Positions 3,543 to 26,367 of a stretch of DNA of 64,000 nucleotides are shown here, in pieces. The notes beneath the pieces are model-generated. The model saw nothing but the letters and a program-made list of their open reading frames with translations, ran no database searches and was not told where the DNA came from. Origin of the DNA: Polyangiaceae bacterium (GTDB taxonomy: Bacteria; Myxococcota_A; Polyangia; Polyangiales; Polyangiaceae); the NCBI GenBank assembly GCA_025936045.1, contig JAICUB010000002.1:1-64000 (forward strand), read 5' to 3'. Within the stretch, counting starts at the first letter, position 1; every line of letters begins with the position of its first letter. The position numbers were made by a program, and so were the translations under genes.

Positions 3543-3854
3543 TCAGCTCACGTTCGCGAGTCCGAACACGATGTCGAGCCGCAGCATCTTGAAGATCACG
3601 AGCGGTTGCGCGGTCACGCCGACGAAGCGGACCGCGCCGCCCGCCGCGCGCACGCGTTTGTAGAGCCCGACGAGCGCGCCCACGCCCGAGCTGTCGATCA
3701 GGCGAAGATCGGACAGGTCTACGGTGATGTCGCGCCGCCCGTCTTCGAGCAGCCGGTCGAGGACCGGACGGAGCTCGGGGGCGGACAGCGCGTCGAGCTC
3801 ACCGCGTACCCGAAAGATGGTGTTCTTGTTGATATCCGTACGCGAGTAGTTCAT
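3543..3854 (-). CDS. STAS-domain anti-sigma factor antagonist (RsbV/SpoIIAA-like)
   Basis: This 103-residue protein is a single STAS domain, the usual length for the family. The motif IDSSGVG at residues 53-59 contains the serine (S55 or S56) that RsbW-type kinases phosphorylate in RsbV/SpoIIAA. Such proteins bind an anti-sigma or other HATPase partner when unphosphorylated and release its target. The ATG at 3854 lies inside the 3' end of the epimerase gene (56-bp overlap), so this is the last gene of the minus-strand polysaccharide run. A PP2C phosphatase (17163-17987) and an RsbW-like kinase (25915-26367), the matching partners, lie in the same locus. No sigma factor gene is in the window, so the final target is unknown. 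Confidence 0.9.
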   Translation of the reverse strand: MNYSRTDINKNTIFRVRGELDALSAPELRPVLDRLLEDGRRDITVDLSDLRLIDSSGVGALVGLYKRVRAAGGAVRFVGVTAQPLVIFKMLRLDIVFGLANVS

Positions 3855-4926
3855 GGGGCTCCTTGAGCGAACGCGCGCTCTTCGGTGCGCTCGAGTCGGT
3901 ACGGCCCGCGCGTGACGCGTACCAGCCGACCGTCACGTCGAGACCGCGCCGGAGGTCGTACGCCGGCTCATAACCGATACAGGCACGCGCCCGGTCGATC
4001 GCGGCGAGCGAATGTGGAATGTCGCCCGCGCGCGGGGGGCGGCGCTCGAGCGATGCGCCTTGCGCTTCCGGCGCGTACTTGGCGGCGCGGTCGCGAATGG
4101 CGTCGTAAAGCTCGAGCAGTGTCGTCCGCGCTCCGTACGCGACGTTGAAGACGCGCGGCAAAACCTCGGTCTCCGAGGCGGTAGCCGCGAGCAGGTTCGC
4201 TTGAACTACGTTGTCGACGAAGCAGAAATCGCGGCTGTTGCTGCCGTCGCCGAAGACGACGCTCGGATGTCCCGAGAGCAGTTGCTCGGTCCAGCGCGGG
4301 ATCACCGCGGCGTACGCACCGTTCGGATCCTGGCGCGGCCCGAACACGTTGAAGTAGCGTAAACCGACGCTGTCGACGTGGTGCGTGCGCAGGAACGTCT
4401 CGGCATAGAGCTCGTCCACGAGCTTGCTCGTCGCGTAGGGCGAAAGCGGGCGGCCGAGCTGGCTCTCGAGCTTCGGGCTGTTCTTGTCGTCGCCGTAGAC
4501 GGAGCTCGAAGAGGCGTAGATGACGCGCTCGATGCGCGCTTCCTGCGCGGCAAGCAGCACGGTGACGAAGCCGTCCACGTTGTTCGAATGCGTCGTCATC
4601 GGGTCGTCGATCGAGCGCGGGACCGAGCCGATCGCGGCCTCGTGCAACACGAAACGCGCGCCCTCCATCGCCGCCAGGCACGTCACGCGATCGCGGATGT
4701 CACCTTCGATGAAGTGAAAACGTGACGCTTTGTCCCCCACGCGGTCGAGCACGTCGTCCAGGTTCGACTGGTAACCCGTCGCGAAGTTGTCGAGACCGAC
4801 CACCTCTTGGTTGAGTCGCAGCAGCGCTTCCACGAGGTGAGAGCCGATGAACCCCGCGGCGCCGGTCACGAGCCAGCGCGCCGGGTTCGCGAGCAGCTCC
4901 GAGGAGACCTTTTCGAAGCGGGTCAC
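3799..4926 (-). CDS. NAD-dependent UDP-N-acetylhexosamine 4-epimerase (WbpP/TviC-like)
   Basis: This is an extended SDR protein of 375 residues. It has the N-terminal Rossmann motif TGAAGFIG at residues 21-28, the family-typical VVGLDNFATGYQ, an SSSSVYG segment and the catalytic YATSK. The sequence around the Rossmann motif and GLDNFATG matches the WbpP/TviC group, which interconverts UDP-GlcNAc and UDP-GalNAc or the matching uronic acids. I chose the GTG at 4926 because it follows the dehydrogenase stop (4928) by one base. An ATG at 4980 would add 18 residues read out of frame from that gene. With the adjacent dehydrogenase it would supply acetamido-hexuronate precursors. The 3' end overlaps the STAS gene, suggesting coupling. 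Exact substrate is inferred. Confidence 0.9.
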   Translation of the reverse strand: MTRFEKVSSELLANPARWLVTGAAGFIGSHLVEALLRLNQEVVGLDNFATGYQSNLDDVLDRVGDKASRFHFIEGDIRDRVTCLAAMEGARFVLHEAAIGSVPRSIDDPMTTHSNNVDGFVTVLLAAQEARIERVIYASSSSVYGDDKNSPKLESQLGRPLSPYATSKLVDELYAETFLRTHHVDSVGLRYFNVFGPRQDPNGAYAAVIPRWTEQLLSGHPSVVFGDGSNSRDFCFVDNVVQANLLAATASETEVLPRVFNVAYGARTTLLELYDAIRDRAAKYAPEAQGASLERRPPRAGDIPHSLAAIDRARACIGYEPAYDLRRGLDVTVGWYASRAGRTDSSAPKSARSLKEPHELLAYGYQQEHHLSGTR

Positions 4927-4927
4927 G

Positions 4928-6211
4928 TCAGAGGCTCCAGTACTTGATGTCGGCGCGAACCTCGCTCGGTTCGATCGCACCTTTGAGGTCGCAGAGGATC
5001 CCGTGGTCCCGGATGGCGCCGAAGAGCTCTTGGCGCGGCATCTCCAGGATTTGCTTGTGCGGGACGGCGAGGATCAGCGCGTCGAGCTCGGTAAACTCCG
5101 ACCAAGGCTGGAGACGAACCGGGTGCTCCAAGTGCTGTGAAGCTTCACCGTCGACCAATGGATCGTGGACGATGGGCTCGATACCGAATTGTTCGAGCTC
5201 CTTCACGATGTCGGTGACCTTCGTGTTCCTGAGATCCGGCACGTCTTGCTTGAAAGTGAGGCCGAGGATGCCGACGCGGGCGCCCTGGATGCGAACGTCG
5301 GCGCGCGCGAGGTGCTTCACCAGACGCTGCGCGACGAACGGCCCCATGCCCTCGTTGATGCGCCGGCCCGCGAGGATCACCTGCGGGTGGTAGCCGACCG
5401 ACTCCGCGAGCGTGGTCAGATAATACGGGTCGACGCCGATGCAGTGCCCGCCCACGAGTCCCGGCTCGAAACGCAAGAAGTTCCACTTGGTGCCCGCGGC
5501 GCGGAGCACGTCGCGCGTGCGAATGCCGATACGGTCGCAAATCAGTGAAAGCTCGTTCATGAGCGCGATGTTGAGGTCGCGCTGCACGTTTTCCACGGCT
5601 TTGGCCGCCTCGGCGACCCTGATCGAGGGCGCCCGGTACACGCCGGCGTCCACCACGGTCTCGTAGACGCGCGCGACGCGGTCGAGCGTCTCCTTGTCTT
5701 CACCGGACACCACTTTCACGATCTTCTCGAAGGAATGCTCGCGGTCGCCCGGGTTGATGCGCTCGGGCGAATAACCGAGCTTGAAGTCCCGACCGCGCTT
5801 GAGCCCGCTCGTCTTCTCGAGGATCGGGCCGCAGATGTCCTCGGTCACGCCGGGGTATACGGTCGATTCGTAAACGACGACGCTGCCCGGCTTCATGTGC
5901 TTGCCGACCGTCTCGCTCGCCTTCACGACCGGCGTGAGATCCGGGCGGTGATCCTCGTCGATGGGCGTCGGTACCGCGACGACGAAGAAGTTCGACCGCT
6001 CGAGCATCGAATCGTCCGTCGTCGCTTCGAGCTTCGACTGCTTGAGCGCGGCCGGATCCACTTCGTTCGTGGTGTCGATGCCACGACGCAAGCTGTCCAC
6101 GCGCCGCGCGCTCAAATCGAAGCCGATCGTTTGGGGAAAGCGACGCGCAAAAGCCAATGCGATCGGCAATCCGACGTAGCCGAGCCCGATGACCGCAATC
6201 CTATCTTCCAT
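4928..6211 (-). CDS. UDP-N-acetylhexosamine 6-dehydrogenase (WbpO/TviB-like)
   Basis: The protein has 427 residues. It carries the N-terminal NAD motif VIGLGYVGLP, a VPTPID segment, YESTVYPG, the catalytic GGHCIGVDPYYL with C257, and LGLTFKQDVPDLRN in the UDP-binding C-terminal domain. This order defines the UDP-glucose/GDP-mannose dehydrogenase family; sequence details and the neighbouring epimerase point to the Vi-antigen (TviB/VipA) or WbpO branch, which oxidises UDP-GlcNAc or UDP-GalNAc to the uronic acid. The ATG is at 6211. A 152-bp gap separates it from the barrel gene upstream, so a new transcription unit could start there. The stop is one base before the epimerase GTG. Confidence 0.93.
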   Translation of the reverse strand: MEDRIAVIGLGYVGLPIALAFARRFPQTIGFDLSARRVDSLRRGIDTTNEVDPAALKQSKLEATTDDSMLERSNFFVVAVPTPIDEDHRPDLTPVVKASETVGKHMKPGSVVVYESTVYPGVTEDICGPILEKTSGLKRGRDFKLGYSPERINPGDREHSFEKIVKVVSGEDKETLDRVARVYETVVDAGVYRAPSIRVAEAAKAVENVQRDLNIALMNELSLICDRIGIRTRDVLRAAGTKWNFLRFEPGLVGGHCIGVDPYYLTTLAESVGYHPQVILAGRRINEGMGPFVAQRLVKHLARADVRIQGARVGILGLTFKQDVPDLRNTKVTDIVKELEQFGIEPIVHDPLVDGEASQHLEHPVRLQPWSEFTELDALILAVPHKQILEMPRQELFGAIRDHGILCDLKGAIEPSEVRADIKYWSL

Positions 6212-6363
6212 GCGCGCCGACTCTTGCAAAACGTGGGCCGCGCTCGTTGCGCCACGGCGTATCTTCGGTGCCTTCCCGCGACGCTGCCACCGCAGCATCG
6301 CGCCACGGTGAGATCGCAAGTCACGCGCGTGCGGCGCAATCGACCCGCGCTCGCACGCGTGCT

Positions 6364-7728
6364 TCAGCGGGAGCGACCGCTCGGCGCGGCGATGCCCTGA
6401 CCGTCGGGTACCGTCGCGGTCCGGAGCTCGTCGGTGCGATCGACGCGCTGGGGGGCGCGGTACGCGGCGGGCATCTCCGGATCGGGGGGGAATTTGAAGG
6501 CCGCGCCGAGCATCAGATTGTTTTGCACGAAGCTCACCGGCAAGGTCACGACGCGCACGCCGGAGCGTTGATCGACGTGCTGGGCCCGGATACCGAGCAG
6601 GAGCCACGGAGTCGTCTGCCAGCCCAACGTCACGTCGGCGAGGAGAAGCGAGACGTGCGTCGCAAGATGCGCATCTTGATCGAGCAGACGCCCCGTTTGG
6701 TACCCGCCGCTCGCGGCCAGAGAAAAAGTCGCCTTCTGGTCCAGCGGCACGGCGCCGCGCAGGCGTATTTCGTCGGAAAGGTAGGACTGGCCGAGCAATA
6801 CGTTCGTGGTGATCGCGTGACGGTAGCTCAAGGTGGCGTCCCCGAAGGTGTCCGCGTACCCGAGCGTGGCGCTGCCCGTCGGGTACCAGCGGGTTCTGTC
6901 CGGCTCGACGCGGTCGAGCCGGGCCACACCGGCTTCGAAGCGCGAGTTCAGGTAGCGACCGATGTCCCGGCGGTATACCGCGACCGCGCGGGTCACGAGC
7001 TCGCGCTCGAGCGCCACGCGCGTCCCGTCGGCGAGAATGCCGTCGTGCACGACGTTGTAGTCGGCGCGAACTTCTGCGCCGAGGGCGTTGCCGAGCCAAC
7101 TGTACTCGCCGCCGAGCCGAGCATTCGGCATCAGCGTCGTCGGAGCGTCACCCGCGAGCGGCGTCCCGTAGACGAAGCCGAGGCCCTCGTATCCACGCCA
7201 CCCGACCGTGAAGTCGTCGCTGACGAGCTCGTCGACGCTGGCCTGGAAAAGCTTCGTCGAGGCGCTGCCGAGGAACGGTACGGCCCCGGCGCCAGGCGGA
7301 GCGAAGGTGAGCGCGCCGTAACTGTCGGATTCCGCCGCCGCCGCGCCGACAATCGCGTTCAGACCCTTGGAAAGGTCGAAAAAGCCGCGGTACTCGAGAC
7401 GATTCGAGGCGCTGTTGGTCGCGCTGCGCGCGAAATACACATCGTAGTCGAAGGTGTAAGCCAGGCGCTGCACGGTGCGCGGTGAAAGCAAGCCGAGTAC
7501 GAGGCCGGGCCTCAGCACCACGAAGGCGCCGGCCGTTTTGGAAGCGCCGCCGGGGAGCGGCACGTCCGGCGCGGACTGGACGTTGTCGCTCACGCCGAGG
7601 GAGGTGTCGCCGACCGCCTGGAGCTTGGGCGTTTGGGCGCGCGCTCCGCCGAGCCAACCAAAAAAGAAAGCCGAAAACGCGAGCGCACCGACGCTCGCTC
7701 GGGCCTTGCTCCCTCGGCGCCGCCGCAT
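6364..7728 (-). CDS. Outer-membrane beta-barrel protein of the exopolysaccharide system
   Basis: The protein has 454 residues. An Arg-rich N terminus, a hydrophobic core and an ARAQ cleavage region form a Sec signal peptide. The rest alternates short amphipathic strands rich in aromatic and Gly residues (for example ATLGYADTFGDATLSYRH), as expected of a large outer-membrane barrel. Its gene starts 3 bp after the CapK-like gene, inside the wzc/wze run. In Myxococcus, barrel proteins of the Wzp type are paired with short Wza-like proteins that lack an outer-membrane pore domain. The short Wza at 20372-20977 makes the same role plausible here. That role is inferred from context; no specific motif was recognised. 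Confidence 0.75.
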   Translation of the reverse strand: MRRRRGSKARASVGALAFSAFFFGWLGGARAQTPKLQAVGDTSLGVSDNVQSAPDVPLPGGASKTAGAFVVLRPGLVLGLLSPRTVQRLAYTFDYDVYFARSATNSASNRLEYRGFFDLSKGLNAIVGAAAAESDSYGALTFAPPGAGAVPFLGSASTKLFQASVDELVSDDFTVGWRGYEGLGFVYGTPLAGDAPTTLMPNARLGGEYSWLGNALGAEVRADYNVVHDGILADGTRVALERELVTRAVAVYRRDIGRYLNSRFEAGVARLDRVEPDRTRWYPTGSATLGYADTFGDATLSYRHAITTNVLLGQSYLSDEIRLRGAVPLDQKATFSLAASGGYQTGRLLDQDAHLATHVSLLLADVTLGWQTTPWLLLGIRAQHVDQRSGVRVVTLPVSFVQNNLMLGAAFKFPPDPEMPAAYRAPQRVDRTDELRTATVPDGQGIAAPSGRSR

Positions 7729-7731
7729 CCG

Positions 7732-9102
7732 TCAGTTCTCGACGACGACCACGCGCCGCTTGCCCGTGCGATCGGGCAAAAGCTCCGAGACGACCTCGGA
7801 CCTGAGCGGGACGCCGGGTACGTATTTGCCGATGTGGTCCTTGATGGCTTGGAGCAGCGAATCGTCGAGCTTGCCGACGGGGACGAGGCGCAGATCGATG
7901 GCGTTGTCGCGCCGCTGAATCACCTGGAATTCGCGCACCTTGTCGGCGAGGTACGCCATGAGCACGCTGAAGAACATGCCGCTCACGGGGTTGCCCTGCG
8001 CGTCGCGCAAGGTTTCCGTCGAGCGGCCCTCGATGCTTTCGAGCCGCGAGAGCCAGCGCCCGCAGGCGCAGCGCTCGTTCGCGTGGGCCACCGCGAGGTC
8101 GCCAGTGAGATAACGCACGAAGGGCGCCCCGTAGTTGTGCAGATCCGTGATCGCGACCTCGCCGAGCTCGCCCGGTTCTGCAAGACGTTGCCGATCGCCG
8201 TCCCGAACGACGACCTCCACGATCAGGTTTTCCATCGACTGGTGAAGGCCGGCGTGTGCTTCGCACTCGGCGGCGATCAGCATGACCTCGCGGTTGCCGT
8301 ACGTTTCGAACACGCCGGGTCCGAAGGCGCTCATCATGGCGCTGCGATCGCTCTGAAACAGCCGCTCCGCCGCGCAGATCACGTTGATGTCGCTCCAGTC
8401 GCGGCACCCCGTGGCGTTCACGTGGCGAGCGAGCGCCGCGCCGGCCTGCGCGTAGCACACGATGACCTTCGGTTTCACGGCGCGGATCCGCTCGACGACG
8501 CGATCGAGCGCCTCCGGCGAGCGCTCCGTGCAGTCGACGTAGTGCTCGCGGCGGAACGAATGATCCACCGTCTCCTTGAGCCGGCGTCCGAACGGTGGTG
8601 GCTCGAGCGACGGGGACCCCCAATAATGGATGCTCGGGTCGCCCAGTTGGTAGCCGGCCCAACCGTAGCCGCGAAGCTTGGTGGCCTGGCGCCAGTACTC
8701 GGAGCCGAAGTCGTAGGCGAACGCGAGCGGGCGGCCCGTCGTGCCGCTCGTCGACTTGTCGATGGTCGCGAACGGCGGCGCCACCGAACGCCGTTCCGCG
8801 AAGTGCTCGCGGGCCTCGTCGCGCGTGAGGAGCGGCAGCCGCCTGAGGTCGTCCAAGTGGTGCACGTCGCCGACTTCGAGCCCAGCCGCCCGATAGCGCT
8901 CCCGCAGATAAGGGATGTTTTGGAAGACGTGCGCGAGCAAGCGGCCGAGCTCGCGCTCCTGCAGCGCCTCGAGCTCGTCGAGCGAGCACCACTGAGTGCG
9001 CTCGAGCTCGCGCAGATGGTCGAGCGTCGGGCGGCGTTTGAGGCCGCTCTGCAGCCCGGGATAGAGCACGCGTTGAAAGAGAAACCCGTAAAGATCCATC
9101 AT
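7732..9102 (-). CDS. CapK-like adenylate-forming enzyme (phenylacetate-CoA ligase family)
   Basis: This 456-residue protein has the adenylate-forming phosphate loop STSGTTGRP. It also shows ETYGNRE followed by a conserved ECEAHAGLH segment, DLHNYGAPFVRYLTGD, and a CACGR motif near the C-terminal domain. CapK-like members of this superfamily are common in capsule and exopolysaccharide loci, but their acyl or amino-acid substrates are mostly unknown; they may activate a non-sugar substituent. The ATG at 9102 overlaps the upstream stop (ATGA), which indicates translational coupling and rules out longer starts. A second copy with the same motifs lies at 38612-40033. Confidence 0.85.
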   Translation of the reverse strand: MMDLYGFLFQRVLYPGLQSGLKRRPTLDHLRELERTQWCSLDELEALQERELGRLLAHVFQNIPYLRERYRAAGLEVGDVHHLDDLRRLPLLTRDEAREHFAERRSVAPPFATIDKSTSGTTGRPLAFAYDFGSEYWRQATKLRGYGWAGYQLGDPSIHYWGSPSLEPPPFGRRLKETVDHSFRREHYVDCTERSPEALDRVVERIRAVKPKVIVCYAQAGAALARHVNATGCRDWSDINVICAAERLFQSDRSAMMSAFGPGVFETYGNREVMLIAAECEAHAGLHQSMENLIVEVVVRDGDRQRLAEPGELGEVAITDLHNYGAPFVRYLTGDLAVAHANERCACGRWLSRLESIEGRSTETLRDAQGNPVSGMFFSVLMAYLADKVREFQVIQRRDNAIDLRLVPVGKLDDSLLQAIKDHIGKYVPGVPLRSEVVSELLPDRTGKRRVVVVEN

Positions 9103-10190
9103 GCGGCTAGCGGGGGTGGAGGGAGGGCATGGTCGCGGTAAAGGTTCGGATCGCCGCGCATGCCCTGCATGCCGGCGAGCGCGATGTTGAACATCTCTCG
9201 GGCGCTCACGTAGTGGAGCACGAAGCGCCGGCCGTCGTTGTACTTGCGCGTGAGCTCGCGGTGGAGCGCGCGGCCGGGCTCGCCGAGGAGCGCCTTCGCC
9301 TGCGTTTCGGGCGCACCATGCGTGTGCACCTTGACGAAGAGCCATTCGGGGCGACCCTCGACGTGAATGTCCTGCGCGACCCACGTGGCCACGCGATCGG
9401 GCGTGCCCGGGTCGCGCGCCGTGAGCGCGGCGCTCTCGATGCGGAAGCCGAGCTTTCGACGCGCGAGCGCGAGCGGTCCCTGGATCATCAAGATACGATC
9501 GCGCATCACGGTACCGACGCGCGCGCGGATGCCGTGCTCGTGCGCTCGCGCCCGCCGCGGATCGCCGGTGGGCCAGTAGATCTGATTGACGATGTTCGGT
9601 TGCGTGGAGTCCGGCGCTGAAGGAAAGGTGAAGTCCGCGTAACAGCCCGTCTCGAACAGCACGGCGAGCTCCGAATCGACGCCGCAGTAGCGGCCGTCCG
9701 GGCGGCTGTTCGCGAGACACCAATTGCCGTGGATGAACGCGTAGCGCGCCCGTCCGTCCTGATCGCGCGTGAGGTGCCCGTGCTCGGCGTAGGCACCGAT
9801 GTAACGCGCGAGGTCGTGCGTGAGCTTTTGCGCGTCGTCCGCGTCGTGATGCAGGTGGACCTCGACCTCGCCGTAGCCCCGGGCGACGAGGCCTCCGAGC
9901 AGGTCGAGGTAGCGCGGATCGTATTGTTCGCCTGGAAAGAAGAACGAGTGCCGCGGAGCGCGCCCGTCGGCGTCGTGAAACTCGTCGAAGGCGCGCGGGT
10001 ACTCGCCGGCCCAGCGCTCGACGCGCTCGAGGCCCCGCGTTCGGTCGACGTCGCCCCAGAGCGGCTCGTAATGATCGCAGAGCGCGAACAGGACGTGCCG
10101 CGGGCCCTCGAAGGTCGCTTTTTTGCGGTCACGTAAGCGTTGGCTCACGTATCCGGTGAGCCAGCGATGAACGTTGCGATGAAAAGCCAT
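9099..10190 (-). CDS. Polysaccharide deacetylase-like protein of the exopolysaccharide cluster
   Basis: This 363-residue protein has no signal peptide. It contains FALCDHYEPLWG, SFFFPGEQYDPRYLDLL, EVEVHLHHDADD and FIHGNWCLANS. The spacing of Asp, His-His and FIHGNW resembles a divergent NodB/GH57-like deacetylase barrel, but the canonical TFDDGP motif is absent. I therefore infer the fold and not a proven activity. It overlaps the CapK-like gene by 4 bp and follows the Wze-like gene by 15 bp, so it belongs to the assembly operon. A possible role is N-deacetylation of lipid-linked sugars in the cytoplasm; it could also be an unrelated carbohydrate-active enzyme. Confidence 0.6.
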   Translation of the reverse strand: MAFHRNVHRWLTGYVSQRLRDRKKATFEGPRHVLFALCDHYEPLWGDVDRTRGLERVERWAGEYPRAFDEFHDADGRAPRHSFFFPGEQYDPRYLDLLGGLVARGYGEVEVHLHHDADDAQKLTHDLARYIGAYAEHGHLTRDQDGRARYAFIHGNWCLANSRPDGRYCGVDSELAVLFETGCYADFTFPSAPDSTQPNIVNQIYWPTGDPRRARAHEHGIRARVGTVMRDRILMIQGPLALARRKLGFRIESAALTARDPGTPDRVATWVAQDIHVEGRPEWLFVKVHTHGAPETQAKALLGEPGRALHRELTRKYNDGRRFVLHYVSAREMFNIALAGMQGMRGDPNLYRDHALPPPPLAA

Positions 10191-10205: not shown

Positions 10206-11348
10206 TCAGGAATCCAGGAGGATGGTGCCGAACACGGTGCTCGGACTCAGTTGCTGGATGGCGGCTTCGATGCTGCTCCGCCGCGACGAGCCGGCACGGG
10301 CGGTGAGCAGTACGCCGTCCGCGCATTCGCCGACGACGTCCGCGTCTGCGCTTTCGAATACGGCGGCAGAGTCCACGATGATGTAGTCGTAGTCGCTGCG
10401 GAGGTCGTGGAGTGCCGCCGTGAGCAGCAGGCGATCGACGTGACCGGGCCGCGGGCGCTGCTGCGGAAGGGCAGCGACGTGCAGGCGCGTGCCGCGCACG
10501 GCCGCCACGAGATAGGGCGGCGTCACGTCGCGGTTGGCGACGAGCCGTTCCATGAAGCTGTCCGAAGGTTCGAAGCCGAACGCCTGAGCCAGCGACGGCC
10601 GTCGCAGATTCGCGTCGATCAGGAGCACGCGCGCGAGCGTTTCGTCCGCGAGCGCGAGCCCGAGGTTCGCGGCGCACGTCGTCTTGCCTTCGCCTGGTTC
10701 CGCGCTCGAGACGGCGATGACGCGGGGATCGCCGAGGCTCAACAGCCGGTGACGCAACAGCCGATAGGCGCGCGCTTGCTCGGTCGCGTGCCCGTAGAGC
10801 ATGACGAGGCGCGGATCCACGTCCACGGGGATCTCGACGAGCTCGTGCACCTCGGTATGCGCTCCACCGCGGCCGGTCGTGACGATCGCCTCGGTGTCCG
10901 TCCAGCGCATGAGCGTCGAGCGGTTCGCTGCGGTCTCGGGGGGCGGGTCGGGTGCGGTGACGGGAGTGACGGGCAGCGCCGCGCCCGGTTCGGCCGCCTT
11001 TACCGGTTCACTCGGCCGCACCCTGTTCACGAGCGGCACGACGGGTTCCGGCTCGTCCGCGGTGACCTCCGCCGGGACGTTGAAGCCCTGGGGCGGCATG
11101 TCTTTCGAGGCCGTCGTCGAGGGAGCGGCCGCTTCGGGCGGCACGGGCATGCCCATCACGGTCGTACGCACGGCCGCGACGGGTGTGAACGGTCGGGGCG
11201 GTTCCGTCCGAACCGGCACGTTACGTCCGAGCGAGGGCAGCTGCACGGGCGCCGGCGTCCGTATTCGCTCGAGATGCGACGCCTCCGGCGGCAACGTCCA
11301 GTTGTCGATGATCGTGTGCTTGAACTTGAGACCCTCACTGTGAGGCAT
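10206..11348 (-). CDS. Wze/CpsD-like cytoplasmic ATPase (BY-kinase fold) without Tyr tail
   Basis: The protein has 380 residues. About 190 N-terminal residues are Pro/Val/Ala-rich and probably disordered. The C-terminal half is a BY-kinase/MinD-type ATPase: Walker A SSAEPGEGKTT, Walker A' VLLIDANLRRPS and Walker B DYIIVDSA. In Wzx/Wzy systems this protein works with a Wzc chain-length regulator at the inner membrane. The C terminus ends at TVFGTILLDS with no Tyr-rich cluster, so autophosphorylation of the usual kind is doubtful. The ATG at 11348 lies 14 bp inside the wzc-like gene. A longer frame upstream would only read through wzc and is not supported. Confidence 0.88.
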   Translation of the reverse strand: MPHSEGLKFKHTIIDNWTLPPEASHLERIRTPAPVQLPSLGRNVPVRTEPPRPFTPVAAVRTTVMGMPVPPEAAAPSTTASKDMPPQGFNVPAEVTADEPEPVVPLVNRVRPSEPVKAAEPGAALPVTPVTAPDPPPETAANRSTLMRWTDTEAIVTTGRGGAHTEVHELVEIPVDVDPRLVMLYGHATEQARAYRLLRHRLLSLGDPRVIAVSSAEPGEGKTTCAANLGLALADETLARVLLIDANLRRPSLAQAFGFEPSDSFMERLVANRDVTPPYLVAAVRGTRLHVAALPQQRPRPGHVDRLLLTAALHDLRSDYDYIIVDSAAVFESADADVVGECADGVLLTARAGSSRRSSIEAAIQQLSPSTVFGTILLDS

Positions 11349-15922: not shown

Positions 15923-15924
15923 CG

Positions 15925-18898: not shown

Positions 18899-20368
18899 TC
18901 ACGTGGCAGTCCGTTGCGAGCGCAGCGCGTCGAACAAGCGCGCGACGAGATCCTCCGTCGGGCGGCGCGCGACGAGCAGCGCCCCGCCGACGTAAGCGAG
19001 GGCGCCCGCGACCACTTGCAACGCGAGCGAGATCCACGCTTTGGGTTCGCCGTAGCTCGCGAGCAGCGCGCGCACGCCGAGGACGGCCGCGACCATCGGC
19101 ACGCAGGCTCCGAGCGCCGGCAAGAGGCTGCCTATGGATTGTCGCAGCGCCAGCGCTTCGACGCGCGCAACGACGACGAGCGACGCGAGCGCGTGCAGCG
19201 CGAAGGCGAAGCCGACGGCGCCGCACGTCCAGAGCGGGCTTACTCGGCCGAACGTCGCGATGCCGCCCATCAAGCCGACGAGCTTCAAGAGCTCGAGCCA
19301 CAGAATCAGCCCCGGGCGTTGCCGGGCCTGAAGGTAAGACGCGATCGTCCAGCCGACGGGGCGGGTGACGGACAGCGCCGAGAGCAAGACGAGCATCGGG
19401 CCGATCGAAAGCCAGCGCTGATCGAAGAGCACGCTCACGAGCGTCGGCGCGACGGCTCCGAGTCCGACGGCGAGAGGGAATACGACGAGGCCGAGCAACG
19501 CCATCGAACGCAGGAGCGCGGGCACGCGCCGGCTCGGTTCGAGGCGCGCGAACGACGGAAGCAGGACGTCGCCGATCTGCTCGCCGACCTGGATCGCCGG
19601 AACGTCGGCGAGATTGTAGGCGAGGTTGTAGGCGCCCGCGGGGCCCGGCCCGAAGAAGTGGGAGACGAGCAGGTTGTCCCAGCGGCGCGAGGCGAACTGA
19701 CAGGACGCACCGAGCGCCATGGGCACGCCGAACGCGAAGAGCTTGCGTGTCTTTTCCAGGCTGAACCGGGTCGGCTCGAGCCAGTCGCGACGCTTCACCG
19801 CGAAGACGAAGAGGGCGCTACGCAGCGCCGAGCGGGCGACGTTCCCGGCGACGACCGCCATGGCGCCCCAGCCGAGCGCAGCGAAGAGCACGCTCGACAC
19901 GCTGTAGGCGAGCTCGGCCGCGGTTCGCGCGCCGCTCAAGCTGCCGAAGCGGAGATCGCGCACGAGCAGCCGTTCCGGCACGTATGCCACGCGATCGCAG
20001 AGCGCCGCCGCAACGAGACCGGGCAAGAAATGCGTGAGGTGCGGCGCATCGACGGCGAGCCCGAGTGGGCGGCCGCAGCCGGTTACGAGCGCGAGCGCGA
20101 CGATGCCCGAAAGGAAGTGATAGACGGTGACGTGGAAGGCGGTGCCGCGATCGGCCGACTGCTCCGCGATCAGGTACTGGCCGAGGCCGAGCGTCGAGAG
20201 CTGAGTTGCGGTCATCACGAGCACGGCCGCGACGGATACTTCGCCGTACTCGCTCGGCGTGAGGAAGCGCGCCAGCAGGAGAGTACTGACGAGGCCGATG
20301 GCGCGCGCGCCCATACCGGACGAAATCGAGAAGAGTGCGCCGCGCGCGGCGTCACGAGCGAGAGCCAC
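18899..20368 (-). CDS. wzx: Wzx-type polysaccharide flippase (MOP/PST family)
   Basis: This 489-residue protein has about 12-14 hydrophobic segments spread along its length, starting with a short Arg-containing amphipathic N terminus (ARDAARGALFSISSGMGARA). Layout and length match the PST branch of the MOP exporters, which flip undecaprenyl-linked repeat units across the inner membrane. The GTG at 20368 lies 3 bp after the Wza-like gene, so the two are probably co-transcribed. The gene converges on the SUMF1-type lipoprotein with a 25-bp gap. The match rests on topology and neighbours, because this family has few fixed motifs. Confidence 0.88.
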   Translation of the reverse strand: MALARDAARGALFSISSGMGARAIGLVSTLLLARFLTPSEYGEVSVAAVLVMTATQLSTLGLGQYLIAEQSADRGTAFHVTVYHFLSGIVALALVTGCGRPLGLAVDAPHLTHFLPGLVAAALCDRVAYVPERLLVRDLRFGSLSGARTAAELAYSVSSVLFAALGWGAMAVVAGNVARSALRSALFVFAVKRRDWLEPTRFSLEKTRKLFAFGVPMALGASCQFASRRWDNLLVSHFFGPGPAGAYNLAYNLADVPAIQVGEQIGDVLLPSFARLEPSRRVPALLRSMALLGLVVFPLAVGLGAVAPTLVSVLFDQRWLSIGPMLVLLSALSVTRPVGWTIASYLQARQRPGLILWLELLKLVGLMGGIATFGRVSPLWTCGAVGFAFALHALASLVVVARVEALALRQSIGSLLPALGACVPMVAAVLGVRALLASYGEPKAWISLALQVVAGALAYVGGALLVARRPTEDLVARLFDALRSQRTAT

Positions 20369-20371
20369 GAC

Positions 20372-20977
20372 TCAGGGTACCCGCACGGCGTCGCCGGCCT
20401 TGAGCACGATGTCCTCCTGCGGGTTCTTGCCCGAAAGAATGCGGTCGTAGTCGATGGCGATGCGCTCGGCGCCGCTCGGGGTCGGACGCACCACGACCAC
20501 GTCGTGCGTGGAAGCGTAACGATTCGGGCCGCCGGCGAGCGCGATCGCCTCCGAAACGGTGAGGTAGTAGCGCGAAGTGAAGAGGCCGGGATGCTCGACG
20601 TTGCCGGCCACGGTGAAGCGATAGCTGTTCACCTCCGAAACGGACACGGTGACGACGGCGTCCTTGACCAGGGTCTCGGCGCGCTGCTGCGCTTCCTTCT
20701 GCAGGTCCGCGATGGTGCGACCGGCCGCGCGGATCTCGCCGACGACCGGCATCGTGATCGTGCCGTCCGGCCGCACCGTGGCTTCGGTGGAGAGCGCCGG
20801 ATCCTTCCACACCGTGATCGTCACGACGTCGGACGGCCCGATCACGTAGGGCTGGCGGCGCGGGTCGTCGTTCGGGTTCGGGGACACGAGGTGGCCGGCG
20901 TTCGCGGCGCAACCAGCCGACACGAGCGCAAGTCCGAGTGTGATTGTCCAAATTGGAAGGTTACGTGAGGTTCGCAT
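20372..20977 (-). CDS. wza: Wza-like polysaccharide export (OPX) lipoprotein, short type
   Basis: This 201-residue protein has a signal peptide with lipobox VSAGC. A poly-export (PES) domain follows: YVIGPSDVVTITVW, VRPDGTITMPVVGEI and IADLQKEA. One SLBB-type segment has VAGNVEHPGLF and TVSEAIALAGG. It lacks the C-terminal amphipathic helix that forms the outer-membrane pore in Escherichia coli Wza. Export across the outer membrane would therefore need a partner, possibly the barrel protein at 6364-7728. The ATG at 20977 gives the best signal peptide; an in-frame TTG at 20998 would only add a few residues. It is the first gene of the wza-wzx pair and divergent from wzy. Confidence 0.92.
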   Translation of the reverse strand: MRTSRNLPIWTITLGLALVSAGCAANAGHLVSPNPNDDPRRQPYVIGPSDVVTITVWKDPALSTEATVRPDGTITMPVVGEIRAAGRTIADLQKEAQQRAETLVKDAVVTVSVSEVNSYRFTVAGNVEHPGLFTSRYYLTVSEAIALAGGPNRYASTHDVVVVRPTPSGAERIAIDYDRILSGKNPQEDIVLKAGDAVRVP

Positions 20978-21003
20978 CGGCCTACATCTAAACACCAAAT
21001 AAT
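20978..21003. promoter_or_regulatory. AT-rich divergent spacer between wza and wzy
   Basis: Only 26 bp separate the start codons of the divergent wza-like and wzy-like genes. The right half (CTAAACACCAAATAAT) is far more AT-rich than the surroundings and contains a TAATAT -10-like sequence adjoining the wzy ATG. No ribosome site precedes wzy, so a leaderless or very short-leader transcript is possible. The promoter for each gene must lie at least partly inside the other gene. Confidence 0.4.
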
Positions 21004-22401
21004 ATGTTCGCCATACCCGGAATCGTCGGGCTCGTATTTTTAATTTACGTGCGCCCGCAGGAGTTTCTTGGCCCCTTTCGGGCCGTGCCCTTCCTCTATC
21101 TATTTTTTGGATTGTGGCTCTTGGGCATGATCATCGATTTGCGAACTGGCAATCTCCGCTGGCGCAAAACACCCCAGTTCTGGCTCGTAGTCGTCTTCTT
21201 CGTGTTTGCGTCGCTCACGGCCCTCGTGCACGGGCCCACTGCGGCAATCAAGCCGATGACCACGCTCGCCGTCTGCGTCACGCTCTATCTCGGGATCGCG
21301 CACGCCGTGCAATCGTTCCGAGCGCTCGAGATCGTTTCGGGAACGGTGCTCGCGGTCGTGCTCTTCGTTTGCGCGGTGGGAGCCGAGCAAGGTTTCGCGA
21401 GCAACGGTTGCGTCGTCGTCGACGAATCGACGCCCTCGGACACGGCTTCCGGCAAGCCCGACGGCCGCCCCTGCGAGACGGCGAAGACCTGCTACCAGGG
21501 CGACGCCGAGCCCGAAGCCGAATACATGTGCGAGCGCATCGGCCTCTTCGGCACGACCTCGATCGGGCAGGGCCGCGTGCGTTACCGCGGAACCTTGCAG
21601 GATCCGAACGAGCTCGCGCTCGCGGGCGGGGCCGGCTTGCCGCTCGCCTTCGCGTTCGGACGGCGGCGAAAATCGATCAAGAAGGGACTGCTCGTGGCGC
21701 TCACGCTCGGGCTCGTCGGCTGCTGCGCCGTACTCACCGAGTCACGCGGCGGACAGCTCGTCTTCTTGGCGGTGCTCGCGGTGTACTTCGTCAAGCGCTT
21801 CGGTATCGGCGGCATGGCCGTGGGTGGAGTGCTCGCGTTGCCGCTTCTGCTTCTCGGCGGGCGCAGCGGCGCCGAAGCGACCAGCTCCACGGTGGAGCGC
21901 ATCGATTGCTGGGCGGAGGCGCTGTCGATCTGGCGCTCGCATCCGCTCGCCGGGGTCGGGCTCGGGCGCTTCGGCGAATTCCACTACATGACCGCGCACA
22001 ACTCGTATCTCCTGACGCTCGCCGAGCTCGGGCTCCCCGGGATGCTCCTGTTCACCGCCATCGTCTACCTTTCGGCGAAGATCCCGGTCGAGGTCTTGCG
22101 GCGCTTTCCACGGCCGCGGCGGAACGAGCCGGAAGACGACGCAGCGGTGGCACGGCGCTGGGCTACGGCCTATCTCGCGGCGTTCGCGGGCCTGATCGTG
22201 GGCATTTTCTTCCTCTCGTTCTCCTACCATTACGTGCTCTGGATTTACGTGGGGCTCGCGGGCGCCCTCTATTCGGCGGTGCGCGCACACGCCCCCTGGT
22301 TTCGCGTGCGACTCCGCTGGTTCGACGCGCTCGCGATCGGGCTCATCGACGCGTTCATCATCACGGCCGTTTATCTTTATACGCACGCCGCACAGGCTTG
22401 A
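21004..22401 (+). CDS. wzy: Wzy-type polysaccharide polymerase (O-antigen ligase superfamily)
   Basis: This 465-residue polytopic protein has about 10-11 membrane segments, including clusters at the N terminus (PGIVGLVFLIYVRPQEF) and C terminus (LAIGLIDAFIITAVYLYTH). A long loop near residues 135-190 carries several Cys residues, and another carries RYRGTLQDPNELAL. The LxGVGLGRFGEFHYMTAHNSYL segment, with a His-Asn dyad, is typical of the Wzy_C/O-antigen ligase domain. It probably polymerises flipped repeat units in the periplasm. It starts the plus-strand run and ends 11 bp before the heparinase-like gene. Polymerase and ligase cannot be separated from sequence alone; Wzx, Wza and Wzc in the locus favour polymerase. 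Confidence 0.87.
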   Translation: MFAIPGIVGLVFLIYVRPQEFLGPFRAVPFLYLFFGLWLLGMIIDLRTGNLRWRKTPQFWLVVVFFVFASLTALVHGPTAAIKPMTTLAVCVTLYLGIAHAVQSFRALEIVSGTVLAVVLFVCAVGAEQGFASNGCVVVDESTPSDTASGKPDGRPCETAKTCYQGDAEPEAEYMCERIGLFGTTSIGQGRVRYRGTLQDPNELALAGGAGLPLAFAFGRRRKSIKKGLLVALTLGLVGCCAVLTESRGGQLVFLAVLAVYFVKRFGIGGMAVGGVLALPLLLLGGRSGAEATSSTVERIDCWAEALSIWRSHPLAGVGLGRFGEFHYMTAHNSYLLTLAELGLPGMLLFTAIVYLSAKIPVEVLRRFPRPRRNEPEDDAAVARRWATAYLAAFAGLIVGIFFLSFSYHYVLWIYVGLAGALYSAVRAHAPWFRVRLRWFDALAIGLIDAFIITAVYLYTHAAQA

Positions 22402-22412
22402 AGGGACGAACG

Positions 22413-24632
22413 ATGCGACACCTGCGCTTGGCCATCGTGATCGGAAGCGTTCTCAGCGTGCTGGTGCTCGCCGCGGCCTGCGTACGGTTCGGGCTACATC
22501 GCGTGTCTTCGCGCGAGCGCGCGCCGGTCGTGCGCACCCCCGTAGGCGGCCTCGAAGCCGGCAGCTTGAACGTCGTGCGGGGCGGCGCGGACACGCACCG
22601 CATCCTCTTGGACGGGCCAGCGCTCGCGCGCCTGCGTGAAGCCGCAAAGAGCGAGACCGCGGCCTACCGTAGCGTGCTCGCGCGCGCGGACGAAGCGGCG
22701 GAAAAGTCGATCGCCTCGGGCTACCAGGGGTTCGAATGGGCGGACGCCGTGGCGGACTGCGCTCTCGTCTGGCACGCGAGCGGTGACGCGAAGTACGCCG
22801 CTTGCGCGCTCCGCTACCTCGGCGCGCTGCTCGACGATCGTCTCGCCGTCGGAGACAAGCAGGGTGGGGACGACGTCATCCACTACGATTCGGGCTATGG
22901 CATCCGCACCTTCGGCGCCTACACCGCGCTCGCCTACGATTGGTTGCGCGGCGCTCCCGGCTTCGATCGAGCGTTGAAGGACCGCGCTCTCGCCCGCCTG
23001 GACAAGTGGCTCGCTTGGTACGAGACGGACGGCTACCTCCACGACCAGCCGATCGCGAACTACTACTGGGGTTATCTCACCACTCTCGCGTTCGCGGGGC
23101 TCGCGGCGGCGGGCGAGTCGCCGCTCGGTGATCGCTGGCTCGAGCATGCGCGGCGCGAGCTTTCGACCCGCGCACTGCCGGCCTTTCGCGACGAGCTCCA
23201 AGGTGGCGGTTGGCCCGAAGGCTATCAATACGGCGAGTACACGACGGCCGAAGTGGCGCTCGTCGCCGAGGCGTTCCGCACGGGCGCGAACACCGACGTC
23301 ACGCGCAAGCTGCCGTGGCTGGCCGACACCATCACGCATCATAGCCACGCACTCTTGCCCGACGAACGCACGGTTTACGACGGAGGTACCCAGGGCGAGC
23401 ATCCGGTGGTGCCGTCGGCTCTGGCGGTCGCCGCCGTGGACGTCGCTCTCGACGGCATCGGTGACGCGCGGGCCGCGCAGGGCCGATGGTTGCTGCACCA
23501 CGCGCTGCCTCCGCTCCGGCGCGAACAATCCTGGGTGGGGTTGCTCGCGGATCGGCCGGGCGCGCCCGAGCAATCTCCGCGCGACCCAGCGAAGACGAGT
23601 CTCCACCTCGACGGCGTGGGGCTCACGTTCGCGCGCAGCGATTGGTCGCCCGCTGCAACCTGGGTCTCGTTTCAGGCCGGCCCCTGGCTCGCCGAGGACC
23701 ACCAGGACGCCGATCAGGGGCACTTCGAGCTGTTTCGCGGGGCCGACGGCCTGCTCATCGACGCTGGCGACGCGGAGGGCTCGGCCACGATCAACCACAA
23801 TACGCTGCTGATCGACGACGGCGGACGGCACCTCACGTACCCCCCGAATCAAGGCGTATGGGGAGGAGACCGCGTGAAGACCACACGCTACGGCGACGAC
23901 GGCGTGGTCATGCTCGCGGTCGGCGACTTCGGGGAAGCGTACGCTCCCAAGTGCGCTCGCGACGGCTGCAAGACTCGAACGGTCGAGCGCGCCGTGCGAA
24001 GCCTCGTCTTCGTGCGCCCGGACCTCGTCGTCGTCGATGATCGGGTCACGGTCGACGAACCGGACGTGAAGGTCGCGTGGGCCGTCCACCTGACGCAGCC
24101 GCCCGCCGTCGACGGCGACCTTGCGAGCGCCGTCGTCGGGGCGTCGCGCGTGGACGTGCGCACGCTCGAACCGAACGGAGCTCGTCACGCCGCCCTGCGC
24201 GAGCCGACGCCTTCCGGCGAGGGTTCGCACCGAGCGAACCATACCTGGGGCCCCACATTTCGCCTCGAAGTGGAGAGCCCGACGGGCACGCGCGAGCGCG
24301 GTTTTTTGCACGTGGTGAGCGCGGCCGTCGCCTCGGCGCGGCCACCCGACGCGCGGGCCGTGAGAGGCGAGCACCTGCGCGGCGCGGCCGTTCGCGGCGC
24401 GTCACGTCCGGTGGCCGTGCTCTTTGCAGCAGATGACGGCAAGGGACGCGCGCCGCTCGGCGGACCCATCGATGACGTCGTGGTCGCCGGGCTCGCGCCC
24501 GGTCGCCGTTACGACGTCACGGTGGACGCGACGTGCAATCTCACGCTCGCGCCGTCGAGCTCGAGCTCGGCCCTGGCGGCGAATGCGGGCGGTTTCGTGC
24601 GCGTGAGCGCGTCCAAGTGCGGTGCGCCGTGA
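22413..24632 (+). CDS. Heparinase II/III-like envelope protein (lipoprotein)
   Basis: The protein has 739 residues. The signal has a lipobox-like LAAAC. An alpha/alpha-toroid region (about residues 100-330) includes DSGYGIRTFGAYTALAYDWL and GGWPEGYQYGEYT. A beta-sandwich region follows with DHQDADQGHFELFRGAD and INHNTLLID, which resembles the His/Asn catalytic area of heparinase II/III and alginate lyases. Such enzymes cleave uronic-acid polymers by beta-elimination. It starts 11 bp after wzy, and its stop overlaps the next start (GTGA). A paralogue with the same motifs lies at 36061-38670. Possible roles are chain trimming or turnover; the exact substrate is unknown. Confidence 0.82.
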   Translation: MRHLRLAIVIGSVLSVLVLAAACVRFGLHRVSSRERAPVVRTPVGGLEAGSLNVVRGGADTHRILLDGPALARLREAAKSETAAYRSVLARADEAAEKSIASGYQGFEWADAVADCALVWHASGDAKYAACALRYLGALLDDRLAVGDKQGGDDVIHYDSGYGIRTFGAYTALAYDWLRGAPGFDRALKDRALARLDKWLAWYETDGYLHDQPIANYYWGYLTTLAFAGLAAAGESPLGDRWLEHARRELSTRALPAFRDELQGGGWPEGYQYGEYTTAEVALVAEAFRTGANTDVTRKLPWLADTITHHSHALLPDERTVYDGGTQGEHPVVPSALAVAAVDVALDGIGDARAAQGRWLLHHALPPLRREQSWVGLLADRPGAPEQSPRDPAKTSLHLDGVGLTFARSDWSPAATWVSFQAGPWLAEDHQDADQGHFELFRGADGLLIDAGDAEGSATINHNTLLIDDGGRHLTYPPNQGVWGGDRVKTTRYGDDGVVMLAVGDFGEAYAPKCARDGCKTRTVERAVRSLVFVRPDLVVVDDRVTVDEPDVKVAWAVHLTQPPAVDGDLASAVVGASRVDVRTLEPNGARHAALREPTPSGEGSHRANHTWGPTFRLEVESPTGTRERGFLHVVSAAVASARPPDARAVRGEHLRGAAVRGASRPVAVLFAADDGKGRAPLGGPIDDVVVAGLAPGRRYDVTVDATCNLTLAPSSSSSALAANAGGFVRVSASKCGAP

Positions 24633-25933
24633 CGCTCAAGGTGCTCGTCGTCTCGTACGCCTTTCCGCCCGTGGGAGGGGCCGGCGTGCAACGCATGCTG
24701 AAGCTCGTCAAATACCTGCCCGAGCACGGAGTTCTGCCGAGCGTCCTCACCGTCCGACGCCCCTCGGTGCCGGTGATGGATGCGTCCTTGCTCGCCGAAG
24801 TGCCGAAAGAGGTGTCGATCCTGCGCGCGCGCACGCTCGAGCCGAGCTACGCGGCCAAGGATCTCGCCTGGCGAGCCCACGCGGACGCTCCGAAGAAGCT
24901 TGCCGCGCGGCCGCTGCGCGCCGTTTCGAAGTTCGGTCGCGAACTGCTCGTGCCCGACCCGCAGGTGCTCTGGTTGCCCGCGGCGGCGCGTTCGCTGCTC
25001 GGACATTTGCGTGACTCCCCCGAAGACGTCGTGCTCATCAGCGGTCCGCCGTTTTCGCAATTCCTACTGGCGCCGCTCGTCGATCGACTGCGCCACACGC
25101 CTTACGTGCTCGACTATCGGGACGAGTGGACGACGACGAGCTCCATCTACGAAATGTCCGGCTCCGCTCGCGCCGCCGAACGGCTCGAGCGGGCCGTCCT
25201 CCGCCGTGCGAGCGTCGTCACGACCGCCACCGAGGAGTTTCGCGAGAACCTGCTCGCGCGCTTCGATTTTCTCGACCCGGAGCGCACGCTTTCGATCCCG
25301 AACGGCTACGATCCGGCGGATTTCCCCGAGGTCTTGCCGTCACCGCCGAGCGATCGCTGCCTCATCACGTATACGGGCACCGTCTTTCGTCTGACGAGCG
25401 CGCGCGGATTTCTCGCGGGCATGAGGCTCTTCCACGAACGCGAGCCGCACCTCGCCGCGCGCCTCGAGACGCGTTTCGTCGGGCGCATCGTCGAGACCGA
25501 GGCCGACGCGTTCGACGCTACGGAGTCTCTCGGCGTAACGAGGTTCGGCTATTTGCCTCACGCAGAGGCGCTGCGTCTGCTGGCCGAAAGTCACGTGCCG
25601 CTCTGCCTATTGGCCGACCTCCCGGGTTCGGACCGCATCTATCCCGCGAAGATTTTCGAGATCATGCGGCTCGGACGCCCCGCCCTGACGCTCACTCCCG
25701 AGGGGGCGCTCGCTCGCCTCGTCCGGCGCCACCGGCTCGGTGACGTCGTGCCACCGTCCGACGTTGTGGCCATTGCGGCGGTGCTCGAGCGCATCGTGCG
25801 CGCCTTCGTCGACGGTACCCTCGGCCGCGCCGAACGTCCCATCGACGTGGAGCGCTTCGATCGCAGGCTCCTCGCCGGGGAATTCGCGCGGGCGCTCGAG
25901 CTCGGCAGGCGCCGCTACGCCCGCGCCGGATAG
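24629..25933 (+). CDS. Glycosyltransferase family 4-like (GT-B)
   Basis: This 434-residue protein begins KVLVVSYAFPPVGGAGVQR, a frequent N terminus of GT4-like enzymes. It has VLDYRDEWT, VVTTATEEF, SIPNGYDPADFPE, ITYTGTVF and a C-terminal PAKIFEIMRLGRPAL donor-site segment. It probably adds one sugar to the lipid-linked repeat unit. The GTG at 24629 overlaps the upstream stop (GTGA), which fixes the start and suggests coupling. Its last 19 bp overlap the 3' end of the convergent HATPase gene. Confidence 0.9.
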   Translation: MTLKVLVVSYAFPPVGGAGVQRMLKLVKYLPEHGVLPSVLTVRRPSVPVMDASLLAEVPKEVSILRARTLEPSYAAKDLAWRAHADAPKKLAARPLRAVSKFGRELLVPDPQVLWLPAAARSLLGHLRDSPEDVVLISGPPFSQFLLAPLVDRLRHTPYVLDYRDEWTTTSSIYEMSGSARAAERLERAVLRRASVVTTATEEFRENLLARFDFLDPERTLSIPNGYDPADFPEVLPSPPSDRCLITYTGTVFRLTSARGFLAGMRLFHEREPHLAARLETRFVGRIVETEADAFDATESLGVTRFGYLPHAEALRLLAESHVPLCLLADLPGSDRIYPAKIFEIMRLGRPALTLTPEGALARLVRRHRLGDVVPPSDVVAIAAVLERIVRAFVDGTLGRAERPIDVERFDRRLLAGEFARALELGRRRYARAG

Positions 25934-26367
25934 CGCTTCGTCATCGTGAGCACGTTGGGCTCGTCCGGTCGCCTGCCGGGCTGGTAGGTCACCTGGTCCA
26001 TGCACGTGCGCATGATGTAAAGGCCCATTCCGGAGTCCGGCAGCTCGTCGAGGACGGGCGGGATCGTGCTCGTCGGGTCGTAGCTGGTCCCGGTATCGGC
26101 GAGGCGGATGGTGACGGCGTCCTCGCGTAGATCGAGCTCGAGCTCCACTGCGCCCACCGAACGGCCCCGGTAGGCATGAATTGCCACGTTGTTGAATGCC
26201 TCGCCCACGGCCGAGACGACCAGGTCATCGAAGTCCGCCGCTTCACCCTCGCGGCTTGTTTCTTGCTTCGTTGCTCGTTGCGGTCGCAGCAGGCGACACG
26301 CCGAGGCCACCACGCGCAGGACGATATCGCGATAGCGCAAGGTGCCCGGTACCGAAAGGCGAATCAT
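25915..26367 (-). CDS. RsbW/SpoIIAB-like HATPase (anti-sigma factor serine kinase)
   Basis: This 150-residue protein is a stand-alone GHKL ATPase. The N box is VGEAFNNVAIHAY, compared with the EAxxNAVxHAY type in RsbW. The G1 box is LADTGTSYDP and the G2 box is DSGMGLYIMRTCMD. RsbW-type proteins bind a target such as a sigma factor and phosphorylate a STAS antagonist. The strong site AGAAGGA, 6 nt upstream, supports the ATG at 26367. The gene is squeezed between plus-strand genes: its 3' end overlaps a GT4 gene and its start codon overlaps the divergent sugar transferase start. With the STAS and PP2C genes it completes a partner-switching set. Confidence 0.9.
   Translation of the reverse strand: MIRLSVPGTLRYRDIVLRVVASACRLLRPQRATKQETSREGEAADFDDLVVSAVGEAFNNVAIHAYRGRSVGAVELELDLREDAVTIRLADTGTSYDPTSTIPPVLDELPDSGMGLYIMRTCMDQVTYQPGRRPDEPNVLTMTKRYPARA

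Follow-up and report, generated by a model that had tools for sequence, protein, structure and literature searches.

The 64,000-nucleotide window analyzed here, from a Polyangiaceae bacterium (contig JAICUB010000002.1, in an assembly of 87 contigs and 6.37 Mb), contains at about 3.5 to 29.4 kb what is, by its gene content, a Wzx/Wzy-type exopolysaccharide (EPS) locus. Within this locus lie genes for the three proteins of a partner switch: an RsbW-type kinase, a STAS antagonist and a SpoIIE-type PP2C phosphatase. On balance, we favor the view that these proteins form a sigma-free RsbU/RsbV/RsbW-type switch dedicated to one Wzx/Wzy EPS pathway of the Polyangia, with its output most likely on the initiating phosphoglycosyl transferase (PGT). 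The PGT is the conserved neighbor of the kinase and was overlooked in the original prediction, which had described the switch proteins from the sequence of the window. Linkage, co-occurrence and precedent together make it probable that the switch controls the EPS pathway here, and they make the PGT a serious, if tentative, candidate for its direct target.

The kinase gene (25915 to 26367, minus strand; 150 residues) matched PF13581 (HATPase_c_2) with an E value of 6.6e-21. It does lie among plus-strand glycosyltransferase genes, as had been claimed, but its own minus-strand orientation had been missed: it is set between two plus-strand genes, on the opposite strand to its neighbors, overlapping by 19 bp the 3' end of a glycosyltransferase gene (24629 to 25933, plus strand; PF13579, E = 2.5e-14 on a longer open reading frame [ORF]) and starting 55 bp from the divergent PGT gene. 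When the window protein was aligned with 56 of the 81 extracted kinases, E56, N59 and G115 were invariant (57/57), and N60, D91, G93 and G113 were conserved in at least 90% of the sequences. The protein has the N, G1 and G2 boxes of an RsbW-type GHKL serine kinase of the RsbW/SpoIIAB type and no DHp domain. Its AlphaFold2 model had a predicted local distance difference test (pLDDT) score of 90.4, and its best PDB relatives were RsbW and SpoIIAB, with 6m37 (RsbW) and 1th8/1til (SpoIIAB) as the top Foldseek matches.

The STAS protein (3543 to 3854, minus strand; 103 residues) is of the RsbV/SpoIIAA type, matching PF01740 (E = 1.5e-19) and, above its cut-off, TIGR00377. It is an antagonist with a conserved phospho-acceptor serine, predicted to be S55 of the motif D54-S55-S56-G57; D54, S55 and G57 were invariant in all 58 aligned sequences (57 of 76 extracted proteins and the window protein). 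The SpoIIE/RsbU-type PP2C gene (17163 to 17987, minus strand; PF07228, E = 1.9e-37) may truly start at the GTG at 17918, because the 79%-identical protein of a congener (G004) aligns only from residue 17. All four motifs (GGD, DACGHG, TDG and DD) are present in the window protein, including the aspartates that we take to be metal binding; the comparison covered 44 sequences and rests on the 12 commonest motif strings among them, so further losses may exist beyond the exception in G004 described below. No FHA or GAF sensor part was matched by Pfam in the window PP2C, whereas FHA and/or GAF was found in five of six relatives scanned.

The PGT gene (26423 to 27181, plus strand) encodes an initiating enzyme of the small monoPGT form (252 residues; PF02397, E = 4e-50 on the longer ORF 26342 to 27181), in a subfamily that is short throughout (median, 243 residues). 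Its Bac_transf catalytic domain and its fold are those of the monotopic PglC/WbaP superfamily (Foldseek matches 8g1n/8e37 for PglC and 8t53 for WbaP). Soon after the GITGLAQV segment, the window PGT carries a 27-residue insertion (residues 178 to 204), just ahead of which its profile match to the solved PglC/WbaP structures stops. The model scored a pLDDT of 88.9 overall and 83 to 88 in the blocks spanning the insertion. Conservation within the insertion was high (G179, 1.00; S185, 0.95; L194, 0.99; N196, 0.99; P197, 1.00), and the same region was a gap in all 12 control PGTs defined below. A search of plasmids for insertion-bearing PGTs matched 1,004 records and gave no example among the 10 that were compared with the query: 9 of these fell short of the query stretch by at least 31 residues, and the tenth (H5) lacked the insertion in the alignment.

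A PGT search of 317 genomes of the class (E ≤ 1e-40) gave bit scores that split into two groups: 96 matches, including the window, scored at least 247 bits and reached residue 247 or beyond, while 25 scored below 168 bits and ended near residues 177 to 186. The 95 high-scoring loci other than the window were taken as the PGT-side set and 12 of the 25 low-scoring PGTs as controls; kinase, STAS and PP2C genes were counted in these loci when they scored over 60 bits, a threshold that we set. Because 49 of the 95 stretches stop short of 9 kb on one or both sides of the PGT, and 4 of them short of 1.5 kb upstream of it, the numbers of absent genes are maximum values. The claim that the complete switch belongs with the polysaccharide locus was supported, as was conservation of the trio with the locus: among the 95 loci with the same type of PGT, the kinase was present in 81 stretches (within 2 kb of the PGT in 78), STAS in 76 and PP2C in 45. 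In at least one genome (G055), the trio is not part of an EPS locus. For the 46 loci flanked in each direction by 9 kb or more, the corresponding counts were 42, 41 and 29. None of the 12 control loci contained a kinase, STAS or PP2C gene, though 5 carried Wza and 5 carried Wzy genes. A kinase within 2 kb of the PGT was found in 13 of 15 families, with none in f16 (0/3) or f30 (0/1), and genomes sharing a genus or family are not independent in these counts. The kinase was absent from the stretch in 14 of the 95 loci, some of these stretches ending close to the PGT; in one of the 14 genomes (G055) the kinase is on another contig, and in another (G272) it is about 32 kb away if locus L144 belongs to the same contig. 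Two loci carry what looks like a duplicated switch beside the PGT, in which the kinase and STAS genes each occur twice, all four consecutively (L250, at about 10.2 to 11.9 kb, and L262, at about 5.8 to 7.6 kb).

The kinase and PGT genes were divergent in 71 loci, tandem in 7 and convergent in 3. A shared divergent promoter is weakened as the whole explanation of the linkage by these 10 other arrangements and is by itself insufficient, because the linkage persists through changes of orientation. The linkage was also seen from the kinase side, where all counts refer to the best 80 of 126 relatives among named genomes; 56 of the 80 loci were assigned to the Myxococcota by record naming, including entries that name only a delta proteobacterium or Proteobacteria. 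Of the 49 Myxococcota or unresolved delta/proteobacterial loci with 2 kb on both sides of the kinase, 40 had STAS, 37 had the PGT and 20 had PP2C within 2 kb. Nineteen loci of other groups, again with 2 kb on both sides, had STAS in 7 cases, PP2C in 6 and the PGT in none. Additionally, strong kinase, STAS and PGT matches occurred in the same 14 of 59 genomes (own genome included; 3 of 8 in the genus of the window) at thresholds that we set for the kinase (at least 139 bits) and STAS (at least 109 bits), which gave a Fisher P value of 7.5e-14 when shared descent was ignored. At an E value of 0.001, some kinase match was found in 23 of the 59 genomes and some STAS match in 27, the extra ones scoring no more than 45 bits. 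The named strains carrying the set were Sorangium cellulosum So0157-2, So ce26, So ceGT47 and So0008-312 and Minicystis rosea.

Such linkage could also arise by passive co-inheritance, with the kinase, STAS and PGT genes descending from one ancestral EPS cluster and moving as a block with no functional tie. All five locus genes tested did co-diverge, and the trio is separable from the PGT, as the kinase-free stretches (some of them ending near the PGT) indicate. We nevertheless consider this explanation decidedly unlikely: the core is kept in three orientations and 13 families while its neighbors change, and G055 retains both the kinase and the PGT on separate contigs. The ratio of nonsynonymous to synonymous substitution (dN/dS) against G004 was also low, being below 0.27 in all 23 locus genes and 0.110 for the PGT, 0.172 for the kinase and 0.081, the smallest value, for STAS.

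A sigma factor is the textbook output of such a partner switch, and an ordinary anti-sigma switch would have the kinase sequester a sigma factor encoded elsewhere, with the EPS genes in its regulon or merely adjacent. The closest solved relatives of the kinase, RsbW and SpoIIAB, are indeed anti-sigma factors, and the own genome contained 14 matches to the SigB/F/G model below the NCBIfam cut-off (best, 123 bits). None reached the cut-off of 234 bits, however, and six sigma factor sequences of the own genome, used as queries, detected no sigma-like ORF in any of the 80 kinase-centered loci; these queries recovered one another as a positive control, and distant extracytoplasmic function (ECF) types, for which no specific search was made, could be missed. 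The single sigma-like ORF among 107 PGT-centered loci was in L288, which is kinase free. The statement in the original prediction that no sigma factor is present therefore held for the surroundings of the kinase loci and, above the cut-off, for the SigB/F/G family in the genome; no cognate sigma factor of the kind that marks anti-sigma SigB/SigF systems was found in or near the module by searches not aimed specifically at ECF types. For the STAS protein SypA, the authors of one study were not aware of any evidence that it acts as an anti-anti-sigma factor (PMC4517449). We regard an ordinary anti-sigma switch as unlikely.

Several observations weigh against a dedicated switch acting on the PGT. 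PP2C was found in fewer than half of the PGT loci (45/95) and in 29 of the 46 that extend 9 kb or more in each direction. In G055, the trio (locus L153, with an FHA-GAF-PP2C protein) has histidine genes and not EPS genes as its neighbors, which shows that a place within an EPS locus is not universal for the trio; loci L156 to L158 appear similar to L153 in arrangement. The 14 PGTs without a kinase in the stretch also carry the insertion with its conserved residues, so that its presence does not strictly predict a kinase gene alongside. In the G004 PP2C (L094:18256-19053), GGY replaces the metal-binding GGD through one codon difference; this may be either a genuine change or an assembly error, and it argues that the phosphatase is perhaps not needed at that locus. 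Cross-talk is possible: the own genome contains nine SpoIIE matches, and its contig C66 carries another partner-switch cluster (G000:C66:141976-144858), made up of one SpoIIE match and a pair each of kinase-type and STAS matches. Finally, co-divergence showed no special tie between PGT and kinase (PGT-kinase, 0.71; PGT-Wzz, 0.74; kinase-Wzz, 0.72), and the linkage would be compatible with Wzz or another locus protein as the target instead of the PGT. The mirror-tree test for the target of the switch did not discriminate the PGT from Wzz and was set aside.

A different explanation is that EPS is controlled posttranslationally but not at the PGT; the candidates are then the PCP-2/BY-kinase pair, one of the glycosyltransferases and, outside the locus, a diguanylate cyclase. 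For the last of these, SiaC, which in one study reportedly activates the cyclase SiaD, would be a parallel. Wzz was present in 57 and the BY-kinase in 59 of the 95 PGT loci, and Wzz co-diverged with the kinase as closely as the PGT did. Within 2 kb of the kinase, however, the PGT was found in 37 of the 49 Myxococcota or unresolved delta/proteobacterial loci, compared with 11 for Wzz and 7 for the BY-kinase (Wzy, 10), and the PGT and the kinase-STAS pair mostly persisted together where the EPS gene content varied. Control at another protein thus appears rather unlikely to us.

By homology with the Bacillus systems, the switch acting on the PGT would work as follows. The kinase would phosphorylate STAS at S55 and the PP2C would take the phosphate off, and the output would be whichever is free, the kinase or unphosphorylated STAS. 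This output would dock at or near the PGT insertion and set the start of repeat-unit synthesis. In this specific form, in which the RsbW-type kinase and/or STAS binds the initiating PGT via its subfamily insertion and switches polysaccharide synthesis on or off without a sigma factor in the Polyangia, the proposal is possible but somewhat doubtful.

The order of the switch genes was less general than their association. PP2C is the first and STAS the last of one same-strand run, as originally described, and a coding-potential gene map gave this run 13 genes. A single transcript is plausible because the genes lie on the same strand with overlaps or gaps of no more than 134 bp. The same first and last genes were found in G004, which has the layout of the window gene for gene, and in G250, from another genus of the same family, where the PGT, divergent kinase, Wzy, OPX, Wzx and an FGE-like gene are followed by a run that begins with a short PP2C and ends with STAS, at 39 to 65% protein identity; for the GH123-like, dehydrogenase and epimerase genes of the window, no counterpart was detected in the G250 locus. 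Since it is kept in both relatives, and in G250 at such identities, the order is more than a recent accident. It is not a general rule, however: of the 81 kinase loci, 72 had STAS no more than 1 kb from the kinase, 3 had it farther away and 6 had none in the stretch, and PP2C was about 1.4 to 17 kb from the kinase in G010, G026, G036, G041 and G056. Conservation of gene order in relatives was therefore upheld only in part, and the idea that phosphatase and antagonist are generally coupled at the two ends of an operon holds only in this lineage.

The unusual arrangement raises the question of whether the switch is decaying in the lineage of the window, with a sensorless PP2C, STAS parted from the kinase and the metal-binding Asp lost in G004. 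In line with this, the window PP2C lacks the FHA/GAF match seen in most relatives scanned, G004 has changed GGD to GGY, and the dN/dS of PP2C (0.261) was the highest of the 23 locus genes. Against it, all four motifs are intact in the window PP2C, the dN/dS values for STAS and the kinase were those given above (0.081 and 0.172), and G250 shares the layout while its short PP2C retains AGD, GDACGRG, TDG and DD, which indicates that the form is old and maintained. We consider decay very improbable.

Pfam and NCBIfam profile searches gave the locus an OPX protein, Wzx, Wzy, PCP-2, a separate BY-kinase-type ATPase, the PGT, glycosyltransferases, sugar-nucleotide enzymes and a deacetylase. Between PP2C and STAS, all on the minus strand, are genes for a family 4 glycosyltransferase (15925 to 17145; PF13692/PF00534 on a longer ORF, and NCBIfam), a polysaccharide deacetylase (15194 to 15922; PF01522, E = 3e-29) and a GH123-like protein (13705 to 15144; PF13320, E = 1.8e-4 on a longer ORF, under the Pfam cut-off). 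These are followed by a putative second PCP-like membrane protein (12768 to 13712), assigned from sequence reading, with no Pfam or NCBIfam match and with homologues in related loci, and by a TIGR03007-like chain-length determinant of the PCP-2 type (11335 to 12696; NCBIfam E = 1.2e-23, under the equivalog cut-off). The BY-kinase-type ATPase (10206 to 11348; TIGR03018, E = 9.4e-25, under the cut-off) has Walker motifs and a long N-terminal extension, and a Tyr-rich tail was not seen in its sequence; the pseudokinase EcpK (PMC12004946) is a case for comparison. The run continues with a conserved protein without family assignment (9099 to 10190; 83% identity in G004 and about 54 to 63% in more distant loci), a PaaK/CapK-like adenylate-forming protein (7732 to 9102; NCBIfam E = 4.3e-34, under the equivalog cut-off), a probable outer-membrane beta-barrel (6364 to 7728; no Pfam match), a UDP-glucose/GDP-mannose dehydrogenase (4928 to 6229; PF03721/PF00984/PF03720 on a longer ORF) and an NAD-dependent sugar epimerase (3799 to 4926; PF01370, E = 1.1e-60 on a longer ORF), whose gene overlaps that of STAS by 56 bp.

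Outside this run, the minus strand encodes a Wzx-type flippase (18899 to 20368; PF13440, E = 1.6e-46) and a short, Wza-like OPX export protein of 183 residues (20372 to 20923; PF02563/SLBB, TIGR03027-like). The OPX protein and the barrel in one locus may form a composite OPX/barrel translocon, an arrangement reportedly described in one published study. On the plus strand are a Wzy-type polymerase of the O-antigen ligase family (21049 to 22401; PF04932, E = 6.7e-14 on ORF 21004 to 22401), a heparinase II/III-like protein (22398 to 24632; PF07940, E = 2.1e-6 on a longer ORF) and, after the PGT, glycosyltransferases of family 4 (27178 to 28329; PF13692) and family 2 (28326 to 29441; PF00535). Beyond the locus, a large hybrid histidine kinase gene with three receiver domains (43 to 3510) is convergent with the STAS gene and has a G004 copy 90% identical over 1102 residues, and two large plus-strand genes (36061 to 38670 and 40269 to 42152) had no Pfam match at an E value of 0.001.

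Partner switches near polysaccharide genes are already known. The Bacillus modules RsbU/RsbV/RsbW and SpoIIE/SpoIIAA/SpoIIAB have the same three protein types and motifs and are among the closest solved relatives of the kinase and STAS proteins; they differ in that here no sigma factor was found near the locus, and the linkage is instead to the PGT and EPS assembly genes. The syp polysaccharide locus of Vibrio fischeri is controlled by a STAS protein with a phosphorylatable serine, SypA (PMC4517449, PMC8256260), but SypE combines kinase and phosphatase on one response-regulator protein, whereas here these are separate proteins. In the cyanobacterium Nostoc punctiforme, the three proteins HmpU/HmpV/HmpW form a partner switch connected with both motility and polysaccharide (PMC8256260), and the passage on them makes no mention of a PGT link. 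In Myxococcus xanthus, phosphorylated EpsW activates the PGT EpsZ of the EPS pathway (PMC12802240), which is similar in that a small protein governed by phosphorylation turns on the PGT that initiates EPS synthesis in a myxobacterium. That case involves a response regulator and a large PGT with a cytoplasmic DUF, whereas the present one would pair a STAS/kinase switch with a small PGT whose catalytic domain bears an insertion; the PF02397 match of the 252-residue window PGT starts near its N terminus, and the one REC profile used to look for response regulators matched in 2 of the 95 PGT loci (L280 and L298). The STAS protein MlaB binds MlaF, which is the ATPase of a membrane machine, and this binding is lowered by a phosphomimetic at the STAS site (PMC7367683). 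The parallel would be a STAS protein that binds the enzyme of such a machine, although that machine is an ABC transporter and the passages on it show no kinase or phosphatase cognate to MlaB. The EpsW-EpsZ and MlaB-MlaF precedents make the PGT plausible as a target. SpoIIE phosphatases and STAS proteins are expanded in S. cellulosum, according to a phosphatome study of Myxococcus and Sorangium (PMC2887360), whose passages on this expansion are silent on the linkage found here. In the literature searched, which left out most subscription papers, we met neither a description of kinase, STAS and phosphatase, each with a gene of its own, going together with a PGT subfamily across the Polyangia nor any report joining a phosphoglycosyl transferase with partner switching, or RsbW with a sugar transferase and exopolysaccharide.

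The target of SypA is given as unknown in published reports (PMC4517449, PMC8256260), whereas the set described here offers a named, adjacent and conserved candidate target with a subfamily-specific insertion, and its presence in named, sequenced strains makes the question testable. If the proposal is true, partner switching would reach the committed step of polymer synthesis, and the switch would be a second, unrelated way for myxobacteria to achieve what EpsW does for EpsZ.

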